From: Chloroflexota bacterium
GTDB taxonomy: Bacteria; Chloroflexota; Anaerolineae; UBA4142; SHND01
Reading direction: 5' to 3'
NCBI GenBank assembly: GCA_016209205.1
Contig: JACQWQ010000097.1
Span: 1 to 47,132 of the forward strand
Length of the DNA: 47,132 nucleotides
Positions 365 to 47,132 of this stretch are shown piece after piece. Under the pieces are notes generated by a model. The model saw only the letters and a program-made list of their open reading frames with translations, was not told the DNA's origin and did not search any database. A program made the translations under genes and the position numbers. Position 1 is the stretch's first letter. Every line of letters begins with the position of its first letter.

Positions 365-901
365 TCACCTGCGCGTTTCCTTTTTACGCACGAGATTCCC
401 ATCCAGTTCCAGCGGAATCAGGTGCTCGACCGATTTGCGCGCCAATTCATGCCGCTCCAGATAGCGCAAGAAAACGCGGACACGCGCCGTCGGCGTCAAA
501 CGCCGGTCAAAGACCGCGTCCAAATCTTGAAACGGCTCCTGCAAAATTTCGACGGGATCACCCGGCTCGAGCGGCGTCCCGGACTTGTCCCACATCTGCG
601 GTTTCGCCAATTGCGCGCGCACGCGCGCCACGTCTGCGTCCGCGACCACTGCCGGTTCTCCGCCAAACATCACCACCCCGCGCAGTCCGGGCGTGTACCT
701 GAGTTTCGAGACCCCTAACTGCTCAAGGTCATAACGCACAAACAAATAGCCGGGGAAAAATGGGCGATCCACAGGACGGTCGCGGCGCGGCTGCGCGACC
801 GGGATCATTGGCAGGTACACTTCGCCGCCCGCGTGCAGGAGGTGTGAGGCGACTTGACGCTCGGCGTGCAATTTCGTGGAAAGAACATACCATTTTTGCA
901 T
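365..901 (-). CDS. NusG/RfaH/LoaP-type specialised transcription antiterminator
   Basis: A 178-residue protein beginning MQKWYVLSTKLHAERQVASH, typical of an NGN domain. Residues about 48-58 (RPFFPGYLFVR) match the conserved PLFPGYLFV motif, followed by YTPGLRGVVMFGGEPAVV. Residues about 115-165 (LEPGDPVEI...GPF-like...RVRVFLRYLER) form the C-terminal KOW domain. Family knowledge: such NusG paralogs bind RNA polymerase at a leader signal and allow read-through of long operons, often for polysaccharides or secondary metabolites. I chose the ATG at 901 because the extension to 1033 lies in the hairpin-rich leader and is not NGN-like. The leader contains a signal also found upstream of the capD operon at 24 kb, which suggests a shared regulon. 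A remnant of a second KOW domain lies at 43592-43780. Confidence 0.9.
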   Translation of the reverse strand: MQKWYVLSTKLHAERQVASHLLHAGGEVYLPMIPVAQPRRDRPVDRPFFPGYLFVRYDLEQLGVSKLRYTPGLRGVVMFGGEPAVVADADVARVRAQLAKPQMWDKSGTPLEPGDPVEILQEPFQDLDAVFDRRLTPTARVRVFLRYLERHELARKSVEHLIPLELDGNLVRKKETRR

Positions 902-997: not shown

Positions 998-1063
998 GGC
1001 GCTATCTTGGCGCCTTGCAACACGCAGAGCCATTATAGCATACAGAGGATGGATGCGCCTTTT

Positions 1064-1160
1064 GGAGGCGCGCTCCGCCGGTTTGACAGACCGGATCTAA
1101 CACTGCCGTCAAACCATGGGCAAAACAAAGGACGGGTCGCTTGGCATGCCGACCAGTCCT
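1064..1160 (-). promoter_or_regulatory. Conserved leader segment with hairpin and ops-like motif
   Basis: On the minus strand this runs GGTCGGCATG, CGACCCGTCCTTTGTTTT, a GGTTTGAC/GTCAAACC stem (1108-1115 with 1080-1087), then GGCGGAGCGCGCC (1079-1067). The same blocks in the same order occur at 24098-24186 on the plus strand. GGCGGAGCGCG differs from the enterobacterial RfaH ops core GGCGGTAGCG by one missing T. Conservation of a non-coding leader between the antiterminator gene and the polysaccharide operon argues for a regulatory RNA or DNA signal. Confidence 0.65.
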
Positions 1161-1181
1161 TGAGTTCATTTTCCACCTGCT

Positions 1182-1243
1182 ATTATAGCAGAATTTGTCA
1201 CGGAAAAGGTTTTCAAATGGTTTAATGTTGGTAATGTTTTGGT
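1182..1243 (-). promoter_or_regulatory. Promoter with four 11-bp-phased ACC motifs
   Basis: On the minus strand, TATAAT occupies 1187-1182. Twenty bases upstream begins a ladder of four ACC trinucleotides at exact 11-bp steps (1208-1210, 1219-1221, 1230-1232, 1241-1243), each inside a WTWACC-like 11-mer. The proximal one covers the -35 position. This is the geometry of Pho-box-like direct repeats bound by OmpR/PhoB-family activators. The same ladder with the same spacing lies upstream of capD at 24006-24067. Confidence 0.7.
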
Positions 1244-1332
1244 AAAGAAATCCTCGTGCTGGCGCCCGAGTTAGTGTTGAGGCAAACGCATTTGGGGTCG
1301 CGCGCTCGCGTAAAACGCGCCGCATTCCAATC

Positions 1333-22397: not shown

Positions 22398-22415
22398 CAT
22401 CATTTGGATTCGATT

Positions 22416-23998
22416 ATGAACAACGCATACGATACCCTCATCATCGGCGCGGGACTGAATGGTCTCACGACGGCGGCGTATCTGGCAAAAGCGGGACAGC
22501 GCGTTTTGATTTTGGAGCAGCGTGATGTCATCGGCGGCGCGGCGGCGACGGAAGAAATTTTTCCCGGATTCAAATTCGATACGGTGACGCACAACGTCGT
22601 CGGACTGCCGATGCAAGTTGCGTTGAATACAACGCCGCGCGAATTGAATTTGGCGCAGTACGGTTTACAGCTCATTGATGCCGACCCGAACATTTACGCG
22701 CCATTGCCGGACGGCGAAGGGATTACGCTGTGGCGCGACGACGACAAAACGGTGGAATCCCTTCGACGCTTTTCGCCACACGACGCGGCGCGGTGGGTCC
22801 CATTCAAAACGCGCGTGACCAAACTCGCGGCGGTGTTGGCGAAACTGCACGCCATCACCCCCCCCCGCGTCGGCGACCTCGACGCGGCGCAGTTGTGGAC
22901 GCTGGGCAGTTTGGGTTTGAAACTGCGCGGCTTGGGCAAACGCGACCTGCCCGCATTTTTGCGTGCGCTGGCGATGCCCGTCCAAGATTTGCTCGACGAT
23001 GAATTTGAAAACGATTTGCTAAAGGGCGCGCTGGGCAGCGTCGGCGTGCGCGGCATTCGGCTCGGGCCGCGCGGCACGGGCACAGCGTACAATTTTTTGC
23101 GCGGATGTACAAACAACGCGGTGGGCGCGACGATTTACGTACGCGGCGGCGTCGGCAATTTGGCAAACGCGTTGGCGCAATGTGCACAGGCGCACGGCGC
23201 GACGATTCGCACGAATGCGCCGGTGGTCCACATCCAGGCGCGCAAACAAAATGTAGGGGCGCACCTTTATGGTCGCCCCCTTTATGGTCGCCCCCCGCGC
23301 CGCGCGTGGTTTCCGCAATTGACCCGCGCCGCACCTTTTTGAATTTGATTGACCCGCTGCAGCTCGACCCGACGTTTGTTTCGCGCGTGCGCAACATTCG
23401 AATGCAGGGCGTGGTCGCCAAAGTGAATCTCGCGCTCGACGCGCTGCCCAGTTTTCGCGGCGCGTCGCCGGAGCAGTTACGCGGCGCCATCGTCATTGCG
23501 CCGAATTTGGATTACATCGAACGCGCGTATGATGCCGCAAAGTACGGCGCAATGTCGCCGCAGCCGCTGCTTGAAGTGACGATTCCTACATTGAGCGATC
23601 CGTCGCGCGTACCGCAAGGCAAACACGTCATGTCGGTGTGGGTGCAGTACGCGCCGTACAAATTGGAAATTGGAAATTGGAAATTAGAAAAGGAAAAGTT
23701 GGGGCATTGGGTGATTAGGGCATTGGAAGAGTATGCGCCGAATCTCCAATCTCTCGTTCTCCATTCTCAAATTCTCACCCCTTGTGATTTGGAGGAGACG
23801 TACGGCGTGACGGAGGGCGATTTGAATCACGGGCAAATTGCGCTCGACCAATTCTGGTTCATGCGCCCCGTGCCCGGTTTCGCGCAGTATCACGCGCCGC
23901 TGGATGGATTGTATTTATGCGGCGCGGGGGCGCATCCTGGCGGGTTGCCGTGCGCGGCGGGACGGAATGCGGCGCGGGAAATTTCAAAACGGAGCTGA
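22416..23998 (+). pseudogene. PYROXD2/phytoene-dehydrogenase-like oxidoreductase, frameshifted
   Basis: Paralog of the gene at 19176. The N-terminal YDTLIIGAGLNGLTTAAYLAKAGQRVLILEQRDVIGGAAATEEIFPGFKFD and C-terminal LYLCGAGAHPGGLPCAAGRNAAREI FAD motifs are intact. At about 23253-23300 a GTAGGGGCGCACC...GGTCGCCCC repeat with a duplicated CTTTATGGTCGCCCCC unit replaces roughly 25 residues and shifts the frame, so the first half stops at 23342 and the rest (VVSAIDPRRTFLNLIDPLQ) is in another frame. A second, in-frame heptad insert (TTGGAAA, 23661-23695) follows VQYAPYKL, the same place where the paralog carries its repeat. Confidence 0.85.
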
Positions 23999-24005
23999 AT
24001 TCTTT

Positions 24006-24067
24006 ACCAAAGTTATACCAAGATTAAACCTTTTCAAAACCTTTTCTTTGACAATGTCTGCTATAAT
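24006..24067 (+). promoter_or_regulatory. Promoter of capD operon with four 11-bp-phased ACC motifs
   Basis: ACC at 24006, 24017, 24028 and 24039, exactly 11 bp apart; then 20 bp; then TATAAT (24062-24067). Arrangement and flanking sequence (TTTACCAAA...ATTAAACC...AAAACCTTTTC) match the antiterminator promoter at 1182-1243. The last motif covers the -35 position, as for class II activation by an OmpR/PhoB-type regulator. Confidence 0.7.
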
Positions 24068-24097
24068 GGCAGACAGGAAGAGAACAATGGGACAGGT

Positions 24098-24186
24098 CGG
24101 CATGTCACACGACCCGTCCTTTGTTTTCCCCACGGTTTGACAGCAGTTTTGCATGGGAATCTGTCAAACCGGCGGAGCGCGCCTCC
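24098..24186 (+). promoter_or_regulatory. Conserved antitermination-type leader upstream of capD
   Basis: Contains GGTCGGCATG, CGACCCGTCCTTTGTTTT, a perfect 10-bp stem GGTTTGACAG/CTGTCAAACC (24134-24143/24161-24170) and GGCGGAGCGCGCCTCC (24171-24186), in the same order as the leader of the NusG-like gene. Two more hairpins lie downstream: TGTCATATCGAACCACTGC with its complement (24256-24308), and CTGCGAGAAATCTC/GAGATTTCTCGCAG (24356-24397). Confidence 0.65.
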
Positions 24187-24537
24187 AAGTCGTCACTGTG
24201 ATTCGCCGAACTCGTTGTTATACTGCGCGAGGTAACAAATTGCGCTTTTCTATGCTGTCATATCGAACCACTGCCACGCTTCGCTCGCAGCAGTGGTTCG
24301 ATATGACACCCCCCTGCCAAGTTCTGAGCAGCTCCTCAATTCTTCGGGGTAAACTCTGCGAGAAATCTCGGTTTGGCGCAAATGAGATTTCTCGCAGAAA
24401 CCGCTGCTCGGGAAATTCCGCCCATAATCCACGAATTATCGCGCGTAGTTCGCGCACCGAATTACACGAATAAAATTAGTGTTATTCGTCGCGCGGAGTT
24501 CGCGCAATTATTCGCGGAAGGAAAGGAGCTTACCCCG

Positions 24538-26478
24538 ATGCTGCGAAACGTCGTGACCCACCGCATGACCGAAACTGTTCTGCAATTGCGTAACCGTCAT
24601 TTTCTTTACCTCGACGTTATTTTGGTGCTGCTCATTCCGCTGGTCGCGCTGGCGCTGCGCACGGATAACGCGCTGGACGCCGACTGGGCGCCCTCGCTCC
24701 TCGTCTATACCCTCGTTAGCTTGCCGTTGTGGATCGCCACTTTTGTTTTGCTGCGCGTCTATGCGCTCAATTGGCAGTACGCCAGTGTGGAGGAACTCTT
24801 GGTACTGGTGCAGGCGGCGCTCCTCGGCACGCTGGTCAATGCGTTGGTCTTTTTTTTCCTCCTTCGCCCGCTGGGTTTGGTCGCCGAGGGCTTTCCGCGC
24901 TCGATGCCTTTTATCGTCGGTTTGTTGACCTTGAGCGCCATCGGCGCCACGCGCGGCGGGGTGCGTTGGCTGCACCGGCGGCAGCGGTATCACGGGGCGA
25001 CGGCTGCTCCCTCCAAGCGTGTGGCTGTGTACGGCGCGGGGGAGGCGGGGGTGCTGATCGTGCGGGAACTGTTGGCGAATCCGCAGCTGGGCATGACGCC
25101 GGTGGCACTTCTGGACGACGACGCGCGCAAGCACAAGACGATGATTCAAGGTGTTTGCGTGGCAGGGGGCCGCGACGCGCTGGCGCGAATGGCGCGTAAC
25201 GGCGAGATCGCGCAAGTGATTATCGCCATGCCCACCGCGCCGGGCAAGACGCTGCGCGACATTACCCAACAGTGCCTCCAGTCCAATGTGCGGGTGCAAA
25301 CCGTGCCCGGCATTTATGAGCTGTTGAACGGGACCGTCACGGTCAACAAACTGCGCGACGTGGAGATCGAAGATTTGCTGCGCCGCGCGCCGGTTCGGAC
25401 GGAAGGGGCAGACATTGAACGTTTCGTGCGCGGCAAGTGCGTTTTGGTGACCGGCGCGGGCGGTTCGATTGGCGGCGAATTGTGCCGACAGATTGCGCGC
25501 GGCGCGCCGGCGCAAATCATTTTGCTGGGGCACGGCGAGAACAGCATTTTCATGCAGAGCAACGCGCTCGCGCCCGCGTTTCCCCAAGTCCGGTTTCCCT
25601 CGGTCATCGCCGATGTGCGCTATGCGCCGCGTATGAATGCCGTGCTGGCGCGCTATCGTCCCGAATTGATTTTTCACGCGGCGGCGCACAAGCATGTGGC
25701 GTTGATGGAGAGCAATCTCGAAGAGGCCGTGACCAACAACGTGCTCGGCACGCGCGTCATGTTGGATGCGGCGGACGCGCACGGGGTTGAAACGTTCGTA
25801 ATGATTTCCAGCGACAAAGCGGTGAACCCCGCGAGCGTAATGGGCGCGACGAAACGCGTGGCGGAATTGTACGTGCACGCGCGCGCGTTGGAAACGGGGC
25901 GGCGTTATGTGGCGGTGCGCTTTGGCAACGTGCTCGGCTCGCGCGGCAGCGTCGTGCCGCTGTTCAAGCAGCAGATTGCAAACGGCGGGCCGGTGCAAGT
26001 GACGCATCCGGAAGTGCGCCGTTTTTTCATGACGATTCCCGAAGCGGTACACCTGGTTTTGCAGGCGGCGACGCTCGGACGCGGCGGCGAAATTTTCGCG
26101 CTGGATATGGGCGAACCGATCAAGATCGTGGATTTGGCGCGGGACTTGGTACGGCTGAGCGGGCTGCAGGTCGGGCGCGACATTGAGATCGAGTTTATCG
26201 GTCTGCGCCCCGGCGAGAAATTGTTTGAAGAATTGTTCGTGCCGGGGGAGTTGTACGAGCGGACGACGCGCGAAAAAATCTTTGTCTCGCGCAACGGGGT
26301 CACACCTTCCGCCGACGCGCACGCGCGTTTGTACGCGGAAATTGACGCCCTCGTAGCAGCCGCACGCGCCGGCGACGCGGACTGCGTGCGCGCACAATTG
26401 GCGGCGCTTGTGCCCGAGTTTCAGAATAGCGATCATCTGCCATCCGCCATCCGCCATCTGCCACCTGCTGACCCATGA
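24538..26478 (+). CDS. CapD/FlaA1/WbpM-type membrane nucleotide-sugar dehydratase
   Basis: 646 residues. Four hydrophobic segments in the first 150 residues (FLYLDVILVLLIPLVALAL; LLVYTLVSLPLWIATFVLL; LLVLVQAALLGTLVNALVFFFLL; MPFIVGLLTLSAIGA), a first nucleotide-binding domain (VAVYGAGEAGVLIVREL) and the catalytic SDR domain: VLVTGAGGSIGGELCRQI, FHAAAHKHVALMESN, MISSDKAVNPASVMGATKR. Members convert UDP-GlcNAc to 4-keto-6-deoxy sugars for capsule or glycan synthesis at the inner face of the membrane. The ATG at 24538 has AAGGAG nine bases upstream; an earlier in-frame start at 24373 lies in leader hairpins. The C-terminal tail (SDHLPSAIRHLPPADP) is encoded by a CGCCATC heptad array. Confidence 0.92.
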   Translation: MLRNVVTHRMTETVLQLRNRHFLYLDVILVLLIPLVALALRTDNALDADWAPSLLVYTLVSLPLWIATFVLLRVYALNWQYASVEELLVLVQAALLGTLVNALVFFFLLRPLGLVAEGFPRSMPFIVGLLTLSAIGATRGGVRWLHRRQRYHGATAAPSKRVAVYGAGEAGVLIVRELLANPQLGMTPVALLDDDARKHKTMIQGVCVAGGRDALARMARNGEIAQVIIAMPTAPGKTLRDITQQCLQSNVRVQTVPGIYELLNGTVTVNKLRDVEIEDLLRRAPVRTEGADIERFVRGKCVLVTGAGGSIGGELCRQIARGAPAQIILLGHGENSIFMQSNALAPAFPQVRFPSVIADVRYAPRMNAVLARYRPELIFHAAAHKHVALMESNLEEAVTNNVLGTRVMLDAADAHGVETFVMISSDKAVNPASVMGATKRVAELYVHARALETGRRYVAVRFGNVLGSRGSVVPLFKQQIANGGPVQVTHPEVRRFFMTIPEAVHLVLQAATLGRGGEIFALDMGEPIKIVDLARDLVRLSGLQVGRDIEIEFIGLRPGEKLFEELFVPGELYERTTREKIFVSRNGVTPSADAHARLYAEIDALVAAARAGDADCVRAQLAALVPEFQNSDHLPSAIRHLPPADP

Positions 26479-27164
26479 AGGTTTCGATTGTCATTCCTTG
26501 TTACAACGAGCGCGAGACCATCGAGCAAATCGTGCGCGCGGTGACGAATGCACCGGTCGCGGACAAGGAAATTATTGTGGTGGACGATTGTTCGACCGAC
26601 GGGACGCGTGAGGTGATCGAGACGCGGGTCAAGCCGCTGGTGAGCCAGGTGATTTATCACGAGCGCAATCAGGGCAAGGGCGCGGCGCTGCGGAGCGGTT
26701 TTGCAGCGGTGACCGGCGACGTGGTGATTATTCAGGACGCGGATTTGGAGTATGACCCCCAAGAATATCCGCGCCTGCTCCAACCGATTCTCGACGGCAA
26801 GGCGGACGTGGTGTACGGCTCGCGTTTTACCGGCGCGGCAGCGCACCGCGTGGTCTATTTTTGGCACATGGTCGGGAATAAACTGTTGACGCTCACCTCG
26901 AACATGTTCACCGATTTGAATCTGACCGACATGGAGACGTGTTTCAAAGTCATGCGCACGGAGCTGGTGCGGCAGATTCACATTCAAGAAAATCGTTTTG
27001 GGTTCGAGCCGGAGATTACGGCGAAACTGGCGAAACTCAAGCCGCGCATCTACGAAGTGGGGATTTCGTATTACGGGCGCACATATCAGGAAGGCAAAAA
27101 GATTGGTTGGAAAGATGGGGTGCGCGCGATTTATGCGATTGTGAAATATAACGTGTTTGGGTGA
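26475..27164 (+). CDS. Family 2 glycosyltransferase (dolichyl/polyprenyl-phosphate sugar synthase-like)
   Basis: 229 residues, GT-A fold: MKVSIVIPCYNERETIEQIV, IIVVDDCSTDGTREVIE, GKGAALRSGFAAVTGDVVIIQDADLEYDPQEYP (DAD metal-binding motif), VVYGSRF, MFTDLNLTDMETCFKVMR and FGFEPEITAKLAK. There is no membrane helix, as in the catalytic part of DPM1/polyprenyl-phosphate glycosyltransferases. The ATG overlaps the capD stop by 4 bases, so the two form an operon behind the antitermination-type leader. The stop is followed immediately by a GA-rich array (27165-27215). Confidence 0.92.
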   Translation: MKVSIVIPCYNERETIEQIVRAVTNAPVADKEIIVVDDCSTDGTREVIETRVKPLVSQVIYHERNQGKGAALRSGFAAVTGDVVIIQDADLEYDPQEYPRLLQPILDGKADVVYGSRFTGAAAHRVVYFWHMVGNKLLTLTSNMFTDLNLTDMETCFKVMRTELVRQIHIQENRFGFEPEITAKLAKLKPRIYEVGISYYGRTYQEGKKIGWKDGVRAIYAIVKYNVFG

Positions 27165-27877
27165 GGGGAGGGAGAGGGGAAGAGAAGGCGAGAGAGGGCG
27201 AGGGAGAGGGCAATCCGACGTCCCCCTCCTTCCACGAGCCCGGGACGCGCGCTGTGATACTCTTTTCCGTTCACGCGTTTTGTGACTGCGTAGCCGTATA
27301 GCGTGCGATGGAGCGCGCCCTTGGTCGCCGCATCGAGTCCCTGGGTGGAATACGTAATCAGGACCAGGGGTTCAGCCCGTGGCTGGGCGAGCGCTGCCAA
27401 GAGCAACGCCGGGTTTCCCCACAGCACAACGCCTTCCTTGGCCACCTGCCAGACAAAGTGGGGGTCGAGGTTCGGATCGCGCAGGTTGACATAGACGAAC
27501 GAGAAGGAATTTGCCAGATCGAACTTGTCCGCAATGAACGACGACACGCGCAGCGCCGTCTCTGCCTCGGGTCCGAGTTCGGGATCGTGATCCGTTTCAA
27601 ACGCCAGTAGAATGTCAATATCGCTCTTTTTGCGAAATTCTCCTGTTACCGTCGAACCGAACAACACGGCAAAGCGCAGATGGGGAATACTGCTGGCATA
27701 ATCCACGAAACAGCCGAGCGCGGGATAGAGCGCTTCGGGAATACCTAGCGCGAATTCCACTTTGATTGGTGGGCAGACCTTTCGGGTTTTCGGAAACCCG
27801 AAAGGTCTGCCCACATACGAATCAGGAATCCGCTCTAGGTTGACCAGTCCTCGATTTGCTTTAACAGTTTCAGACAT
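27131..27877 (-). CDS. MNT-type nucleotidyltransferase, N-terminus altered by a MITE
   Basis: Core: LRFAVLFGSTVTGEFRKKSDIDILLAFETDHDPE, the GS-x10-DxD signature of minimal nucleotidyltransferases (MNT antitoxins of HEPN/MNT pairs), followed by FSFVYVNLRDPNLDPHFVWQVAKEGVVLWG. The ATG at 27877 (MSETVKANRGLVN) overlaps the end of the HEPN-like gene. Between VN and GIPEALYP lies a TA-flanked MITE (27746-27838) translated in frame as about 30 extra residues (LERIPDSYVGRPFGFPKTR...). The last 25 or so residues come from a GA-rich repeat and run 34 bases into the end of the convergent GT2 gene, so the native C-terminus is lost as well. Confidence 0.75.
   Translation of the reverse strand: MSETVKANRGLVNLERIPDSYVGRPFGFPKTRKVCPPIKVEFALGIPEALYPALGCFVDYASSIPHLRFAVLFGSTVTGEFRKKSDIDILLAFETDHDPELGPEAETALRVSSFIADKFDLANSFSFVYVNLRDPNLDPHFVWQVAKEGVVLWGNPALLLAALAQPRAEPLVLITYSTQGLDAATKGALHRTLYGYAVTKRVNGKEYHSARPGLVEGGGRRIALSLALSRLLFPSPSPHPNTLYFTIA
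27746..27838. mobile_element. TA-flanked MITE, copy E, inside HEPN/MNT overlap
   Basis: One end is intact (GGAATCCGCTCTA, 27825-27837); the other is decayed (TAGCGCGAATTCCACTTTGATTGG). The interior is the CCTTTCGGGTTTT/GGAAACCCGAAAGG hairpin. Its TAG end supplies the stop of the HEPN-like frame, while the MNT frame reads straight through. Confidence 0.85.
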
Positions 27878-46907: not shown

Positions 46908-46921
46908 AAACAAAAAAGCGG

Positions 46922-46995
46922 CTCCTCCTGAGCCCCGATTTCAGTCTGTCCCTCCAGAGTTTCACTGGAGGCTAGGTCCACCCTACGGGTGGCCC
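46922..46995. repeat. Three consecutive small hairpins
   Basis: GGCTCCTCCTGAGCC, CCTCCAGAGTTTCACTGGAGG-like (CCTCCAG/CTGGAGG) and CCACCCTACGGGTGG lie between the convergent DUF3800 and transposase-like ends; they may act as a bidirectional terminator or be the end of an insertion sequence. Confidence 0.5.
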
Positions 46996-47004
46996 AAGGC
47001 TTTC

Positions 47005-47132
47005 TCATAAAAAATCAACTTGCTCCAAGAAGCCCTTGAATAGCTTTGAGTTGTCAGCAAAATCATCCAGCGCCGCTCGAAAGTTTTTGATGTTGGCTTT
47101 GCGCAATAACCCCATCGCCAGTGTACGCAAAC
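47005..47132 (-). CDS. C-terminus of a probable transposase (runs off the window)
   Basis: The last 41 residues, LRTLAMGLLRKANIKNFRAALDDFADNSKLFKGFLEQVDFL, resemble transposase ends of DDE insertion sequences (RTLAMxLLRxxxxxNFxxxLxxFxD). Only this end is visible, so family and integrity cannot be judged. Confidence 0.5.
   Translation of the reverse strand, partial: LRTLAMGLLRKANIKNFRAALDDFADNSKLFKGFLEQVDFL

Follow-up and report, generated by a model that had tools for sequence, protein, structure and literature searches.

A candidate promoter and attenuator leader module shared by a NusG paralog gene and a capD-like operon in a Chloroflexota genome

Two genes that lie 23 kb apart in the window (the whole 47,132-nt stretch of DNA analysed here), one for a NusG paralog and the other, capD, for a UDP-sugar 4,6-dehydratase-like protein, are preceded by very similar DNA, and the question is what this shared DNA does. 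A sequence-only reading of the window had proposed an antitermination circuit in which the paralog acts on its own gene and on capD. The explanation that we favour, with moderate confidence, is a duplicated module made up of an activator-dependent promoter and an attenuator leader, which would co-regulate nusG and capD. The two copies of the shared block and the genes behind them are as follows.

365..901, minus strand: NusG paralog gene (RfaH-like), 178 amino acids from the likely start (Pfam, NCBIfam, homologue starts and a structure model)
1062..1249, minus strand: shared block, copy 1, upstream of the NusG paralog gene
24000..24188, plus strand: shared block, copy 2, upstream of capD
24541..26478, plus strand: capD-like UDP-sugar 4,6-dehydratase gene (Polysacc_synt_2)
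26475..27164, plus strand: family 2 glycosyltransferase gene, second gene of the capD operon

The shared block

When the nusG and capD blocks are aligned, 153 of 189 columns are identical (81%), and identity falls away on either side, to 48 of 150 columns downstream (32%) and 5 of 11 upstream. An assembly duplicate is excluded, because the copies share a contig and roughly a fifth of their positions differ. The claim that the two upstream regions match is thus borne out, and the alignment likewise upholds the statement that GGTTTGAC...GTCAAACC and GGCGGAGCGCGCC are common to both copies in the same order. In the source genome (6.38 Mb in 279 contigs, 94% complete), a blastn search with the 96-nt capD leader finds the nusG copy at E 1.9e-24, and the next match has an E-value of 0.285. 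The 18-mer CGACCCGTCCTTTGTTTT has exactly two exact copies there and three more at 3 mismatches, and its reversed-pattern control gives 8 matches at up to 3 mismatches. The blastn search, the 18-mer pattern and a covariance model of the leader (R1, discussed below) agree on two copies, and a many-copy repeat or transposable element, which the sequence-only reading had named as the finding that would undo its case, is ruled out for this genome at its 94% completeness.

Just upstream of the capD block (22404-23998), an amine-oxidase-like ORF (22404-23342) overlaps, in another frame, an ORF at 23105-23998 that has no Pfam match; the two are perhaps one frameshifted gene.

The promoter and its 11-bp repeats

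Each copy of the block opens with a promoter-like region:

1182..1249, minus strand: operator-like array and extended -10 (TGCTATAAT), TATAAT at 1187-1182; nusG copy
24000..24067, plus strand: operator-like array and extended -10 (TGCTATAAT), TATAAT at 24062-24067; capD copy

The phased repeats that had been noticed here are real and can be described more exactly as ACC triplets spaced at exactly 11 bp and phased to the -10: in both copies ACC stands 56, 45, 34 and 23 nt before the -10, and GAC stands at 12. No good -35 was seen upstream of the extended -10 in the block promoters. In a WWWACCW heptamer frame, which was chosen post hoc and in which the 3′ heptamer of these two copies holds GAC rather than ACC, the last heptamer ends 8 bp upstream of the -10.

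In the genus, the array is present at four of five capD-linked promoters, though weakly in the relative G003. Over the five, 11 of 14 AC[CT] triplets fall in one 11-bp phase; the capD promoter of the window contributes 4 of 4, and the remaining four sum to 7 of 10 (G003 1 of 2, G005 3 of 4 and G002 3 of 4, with no triplet in G004). The in-phase triplets lie at 34, 23 and 12 in G005 and at 34 only in G003, which has TCC at 23; in G002 the array (45, 34 and 12) precedes a sugar-transferase gene that itself precedes capD. At the capD loci of a sister family (7 of 8 viewed by eye), no array or leader was found upstream of the frame; at one locus of that family, L120, the capD frame begins in another gene.

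A pattern of three repeats plus the -10 was searched for in 20 genomes (this one and 19 of its genus and order), and it matched 27 sites, against 6 for the reversed-pattern control; a shifted pattern also gave 27 matches, a set that overlaps the first, against 9. In the source genome the first and shifted patterns match 5 and 7 sites, and their reversed forms match 0 and 0. Offset 12 was not part of the first pattern, and AC[CT] stands there in 15 of the 27 sites that this pattern matched; 16 other offsets average 0.44. These 27 sites are not all independent, since at least three (in G007, G018 and G011) are orthologous. Given the excess over the controls and the enrichment at offset 12, the 11-bp array looks like a real promoter class that recurs in the order.

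Two of the arrays lie near regulator-like genes. One, on contig C15 of the source genome, stands 433 nt ahead of a gene with a Pfam Response_reg match in the first 90 residues of its product, and the full translation of that gene looks like that of an OmpR-type protein. The other, in G012, is just before a receiver-like reading (by eye) that is cut off by the contig end. Separately, arrays of the TTTTTGACC type precede an apparently orthologous gene in three genomes of the sister family (L129, L130 and L132), and the first 90 residues of the protein behind a TTTTTGACC-type array in G007 have no Pfam match.

The leader RNA

Downstream of the promoter, three hairpins or possible hairpins lie in the order T1, H2, H3 in both leaders:

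1122..1161, minus strand: T1, early terminator-like hairpin with a loop of 10, and TTTGTTTT; nusG copy
24089..24127, plus strand: T1, early terminator-like hairpin with a loop of 10, and TTTGTTTT; capD copy
1080..1115, minus strand: H2, GGTTTGAC hairpin of 10 pairs; nusG copy
24134..24170, plus strand: H2, GGTTTGAC hairpin of 10 pairs; capD copy
1067..1079, minus strand: H3, GGCGGAGCGCGCC, possible 4-pair GC hairpin and the ops-like element of the earlier reading; nusG copy
24171..24183, plus strand: H3, GGCGGAGCGCGCC, 4-pair GC hairpin; capD copy

T1 begins about 20 nt after the -10, and CGACCCGTCC-TTTGTTTT forms its 3′ arm and U-tract. The presence of CGACCCGTCCTTTGTTTT in both copies had been recorded correctly, while the terminator-like hairpin of which it is the 3′ half had gone unseen; a consensus terminator scan also missed T1, because that scan allows loops of 3-8 and the T1 loop is 10. 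T1 folds in both copies, and its score in the terminator finder is reached by 0 of 100 mononucleotide shuffles of either. The folding energy of the 60-nt T1 piece is equalled by 1 of 200 dinucleotide shuffles for the capD copy and by 21 of 200 for the nusG copy, which is not exceptional, and the hairpin has its flaws: a 10-nt loop, an inner mismatch and a U-tract interrupted by a G. Both leaders nevertheless have what defines an intrinsic attenuator, a GC-rich hairpin and U-tract between promoter and gene, and attenuation at T1 is likely on this sequence evidence.

The differences between the copies fall mostly outside the proposed stems, with 2 of 48 paired columns changed and 16 of 58 others (Fisher p 0.0014), and both changed paired columns still form a standard pair. 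When the stems are slid circularly along the alignment, 4 of 107 slides have as few changed columns, so part of this p-value reflects plain clustering of conserved columns, and the two sequences give modest evidence for RNA structure. The longest identical run between the copies covers the right arm of H2 and H3; in the single-sequence fold of the nusG copy the H3 letters pair otherwise. A leader peptide was considered and rejected, the 17-codon frame of the capD leader (MGQVGMSHDPSFVFPTV) and the longer nusG frame being in different registers with no common start; a hand count of codon positions in these frames showed no clear bias.

The likeness of GGCGGAGCGCGCC to the RfaH ops core, to which the sequence-only reading had drawn attention, extends to a GGCGG..GCG core and is otherwise weak. 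The ops element itself, GGCGGTAGCG, has 0 occurrences in the window, and GGCGGAGCGCGCC stands in the leaders in its place, without the T that RfaH recognises according to the part of PMC7819879 consulted. The two leader copies are the only exact occurrences of GGCGGAGCGCGCC in the source genome. At up to 1 mismatch it has 67 matches (the 2 exact ones included) against 76 for its reversed control, so it is not enriched, and the core was rejected as a genome-wide recruitment motif. Because H2 and H3 lie downstream of T1, they are also an unlikely signal for its read-through.

The leader as a whole is hard to follow beyond this genome. Among 98 other genomes the best blastn match to it has an E-value of 0.011 over 28 query bases; in the relatives, short matches to its GC-rich 3′ end are common and none spans the leader. 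In model R1 the pairs of H2 and H3 are shifted by one column, so that its search of the source genome was driven by sequence and T1, and in 19 relatives this partly misregistered model gave weak matches only (E 0.03 or worse). A corrected model, R2, searched against 28 sources, recovers both copies and 15 weak matches, the best at E 0.0005 (L149, in G018), with E-values that are biased because seven of the loci had been chosen by R1; two of the weak matches were inspected and are T1-like hairpins without H2 or H3. R2 has no match at the capD leaders of G003, G004 and G005, and at gathering scores no Rfam family matches the leader. The exact 17-mer GACCCGTCCTTTGTTTT was dropped as a wider signal, since it occurs in 21 stretches from many unrelated groups among 84,980 species genomes, close to the chance expectation of about 30 (a hand estimate).

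Similarity of the capD leaders themselves is marginal by shuffling, with 52 of 3000 shuffles as good for this genome and G004, 99 of 3000 for G003 and G004, and 819 of 3000 for this genome and G003; homology across species by way of G004 and G003 was not accepted, and only a shared architecture is retained. A leader pattern search of 99 genomes had one match, in G004, which is no evidence because the pattern was built from that very site. A terminator-like hairpin follows the capD promoter in G003 and a weak one does so in G004; the finder detected none after the capD-linked promoters of G002 and G005. The distance from the weak hairpin to the capD start codon is only 47 nt in G004, where the promoter therefore probably serves capD.

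Terminator-like hairpins also follow other array promoters within 110 nt, 8 of the 27 in all and 3 of the 5 in the source genome (capD, nusG and a site on contig C201); for two of the eight, 5 and 9 of 100 shuffles are as good. The C201 site (G000:C201:565-615, L144) is an array promoter with a terminator hairpin of 16 pairs 24-58 nt downstream, and a similar site on C236 is without a terminator. Array promoters on C129 of the source genome (G000:C129:6445-6484, L170) and in G003 (G003:C76:11333-11383, L123) run towards a convergent gene that is apparently the same in the two species, and each ends in a terminator-like hairpin; at C129 this was read by eye as a hairpin with a T-run some 110 nt downstream. 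With no evident gene of their own, these two sites are possible conserved small-RNA genes.

Two other RNA or repeat elements were seen in the window. A dispersed element containing a hairpin, GACCTTTCGGGTTT...AAACCCGAAAGGTC, with ends like TAGAGCGGATTCC, is present at 241-340 and 27770-27840, and in G003 relatives of it occupy the interval from transketolase to nusG and the one from T1 to capD. A DUF3800-III RNA (Rfam, 50.5 bits) lies at 46915-47022 on the minus strand.

The NusG paralog and the candidate circuit

The nusG coding sequence probably starts at 901, where homologues start, and this start leaves room for a second promoter-like site between the block and the gene:

1032..1040, minus strand: P2, gene-proximal promoter-like site TGCTATAAT, TATAAT at 1037-1032; resembles sites in G003 and G001

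A long inverted repeat, AGACCTGTGATGGTTT...AAACCATCACAGGTCT (943-997), lies between P2 and the nusG start. In G003 and G001, too, a transketolase gene is followed by the nusG ortholog, there with a P2-like site in place and no block, so nusG does not generally need the block, and its copy looks secondary. Since arrays are found in the capD promoters of the genus and no block precedes nusG in G001 and G003, the block was probably that of capD and was later copied to nusG. The common regulatory signal that had been postulated stands as a real shared block and not a chance likeness; any general dependence of nusG on it does not.

The protein matches Pfam NusG at 63.6 bits, and a separate housekeeping NusG is encoded on contig C3 (two pieces with a combined score of 192 bits), so that the gene is, as supposed, that of a specialised NusG, a true paralog. 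Its best NCBIfam model is RfaH TIGR01955, at 76.4 bits and below the cut-off of 144.5, and a second RfaH model (66.1 bits) and NusG (44 bits) also score below cut-off. An AlphaFold model built from only 6 sequences (mean pLDDT 68.3, with residues 103-125 and 155-178 under 50) has a helical C-terminal segment at 137-155. With this low-pLDDT model, Foldseek returns autoinhibited RfaH as the best PDB match (TM 0.58 by query), and its first four PDB matches are all RfaH in the autoinhibited or DNA-bound form. Such a resemblance to autoinhibited RfaH would mean that the paralog depends on a recruitment signal; our confidence in this is modest, but it keeps the circuit idea alive. A truncated second nusG copy lies on contig C194 (L073, 7205-7516); it is 94% identical over residues 118-221 and sits behind an unrelated gene, directly before a nucleotide-sugar epimerase-like gene.

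With the same control DNA before both genes, nusG and capD are probably switched on together, and co-regulation by the shared operator is the best-supported part of the mechanism; the promoter array alone could explain it. We envisage that a regulator with an OmpR-type DNA-binding domain (a SARP or a response regulator) would bind the repeats and turn on capD and the RfaH-like paralog together, that many transcripts would end at T1 after about 50 nt, and that the downstream gene would be reached only by read-through of T1. At nusG the module would be an added layer over P2, so that the paralog would rise when the polysaccharide genes rise. Least certain is the last step, in which the paralog would aid T1 read-through or load at H2/H3 to act on the remaining operon and so make a feed-forward loop. 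The paralog may plausibly act on the leader; if it does, given the order of T1 and then H2/H3, it would have to load within T1 or act further downstream.

The circuit first proposed, in which the paralog is recruited in both leaders (through the ops-like H3 or through T1/H2 RNA), antiterminates and controls its own gene and capD, is a possible account that we consider unlikely. A true paralog closest to RfaH, whose apparently autoinhibited form would imply a recruitment signal, speaks for it, as do the presence of the paralog and capD on one contig in G002, G003 and G005 (they are not on one contig in G004, and G001 has no capD match) and the conservation of H2 and H3 beyond T1, by which the read-through RNA may matter; UpxY proteins, moreover, prevent termination in leaders (PMC7819879, in the part consulted). 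However, H2 and H3 come only after T1, the ops-like core is missing the T and shows no enrichment at 1 mismatch, the G001 and G003 orthologs have no such leader, and blastn, R1 and R2 did not find the full leader in relatives. The capD operon, furthermore, apparently has two genes only, to 27164, where the next listed ORF is on the other strand, and a purine-rich Shine-Dalgarno-like stretch precedes capD, unlike RfaH targets as the consulted part of PMC7819879 describes them.

A broader picture may be drawn, in which the order uses 11-bp ACC-array promoters of SARP-like geometry, 8 of 27 with a close terminator-like hairpin, the capD version was copied before an autoinhibited RfaH-like gene, and the activator starts the leader RNA while the induced paralog lets polymerase through the terminators in a feed-forward loop; we regard this whole as doubtful.

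It is improbable that the block is instead a small-RNA gene in two copies, an array promoter and terminator giving an RNA of ~50 nt, with nusG and capD on their own promoters further down. The C201, C129 and G003:C76 array promoters do run into terminator-like hairpins, and no convincing gene follows, the last two lying beside apparently the same convergent gene (antisense readings), and nusG does have P2, but H2 and H3 are conserved beyond T1 as well, and the closeness of the G004 hairpin to the capD start codon points to a promoter that serves the gene. A plain duplicated promoter, in which the operator alone has a role and the leader is a functionless passenger, is very improbable: the array is common to relatives and the leader sequence is not, but at 81% identity the differences avoid paired columns, and the longest identical run covers the right arm of H2 and H3.

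The duplicated promoter and attenuator module that we prefer has several partial counterparts. Very few NusG paralogs have a known recruitment signal, and the characterised cases are RfaH-ops and LoaP-dfn (PMC7819879, PMC7593976 and PMC12691694, each in the part consulted). A search of one literature collection on NusG paralogs in Chloroflexi found no paper. A two-site leader module near an RfaH-like gene would be a small, testable candidate outside those two groups, and the order-wide operator-like arrays offer a handle on a regulon for which no description was found in the literature consulted.

The block array has the geometry given for SARP operators in the consulted part of PMC10936776, direct repeats 11 bp apart, of which the 3′ one lies 8 bp from the -10, and the AfsR-type operators of Streptomyces, so far as that source describes them, are like it in both respects. 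The Streptomyces operators have two or three repeats, however, and the block arrays four to five. We know of no Streptomyces SARP consensus that equals the heptamer WWWACCW. The boxes of PhoB/OmpR-family response regulators consist of 11-bp direct-repeat units; the likeness to the block lies in those units, and the gene 433 nt behind the C15 array reads as OmpR-type. PhoP and AfsR share a common site at afsS, according to the part of PMC10972967 consulted.

Among the specialised NusG systems, RfaH and ops resemble this one in the best family model and best structural match of the paralog, the helical C-terminal segment of its model and the GGCGG..GCG leader core; they differ in that the paralog scores below the RfaH cut-off, the core is without the ops T and follows a terminator-like hairpin, and the operon is short. 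The UpxY proteins of Bacteroides capsule operons are likewise NusG paralogs linked to polysaccharide genes and to leader termination (PMC7819879, in the part consulted), but the nusG paralog gene here is outside the capD operon and its product scores 58.4 bits against the UpxY cut-off of 100. The NCBIfam score for LoaP is 23.6 bits against a cut-off of 125, and no UNCG-type hairpin was found before the terminator, the loops of T1, H2 and H3 being of other types (by eye). The dfn leader, as the consulted part of PMC12691694 presents it, has a hairpin and an intrinsic terminator before a biosynthetic operon, and the block leader also has a hairpin and an intrinsic-type terminator in such a position; in dfn the LoaP hairpin lies before the terminator, whereas in the block the terminator-like T1 comes first and H2 follows it.
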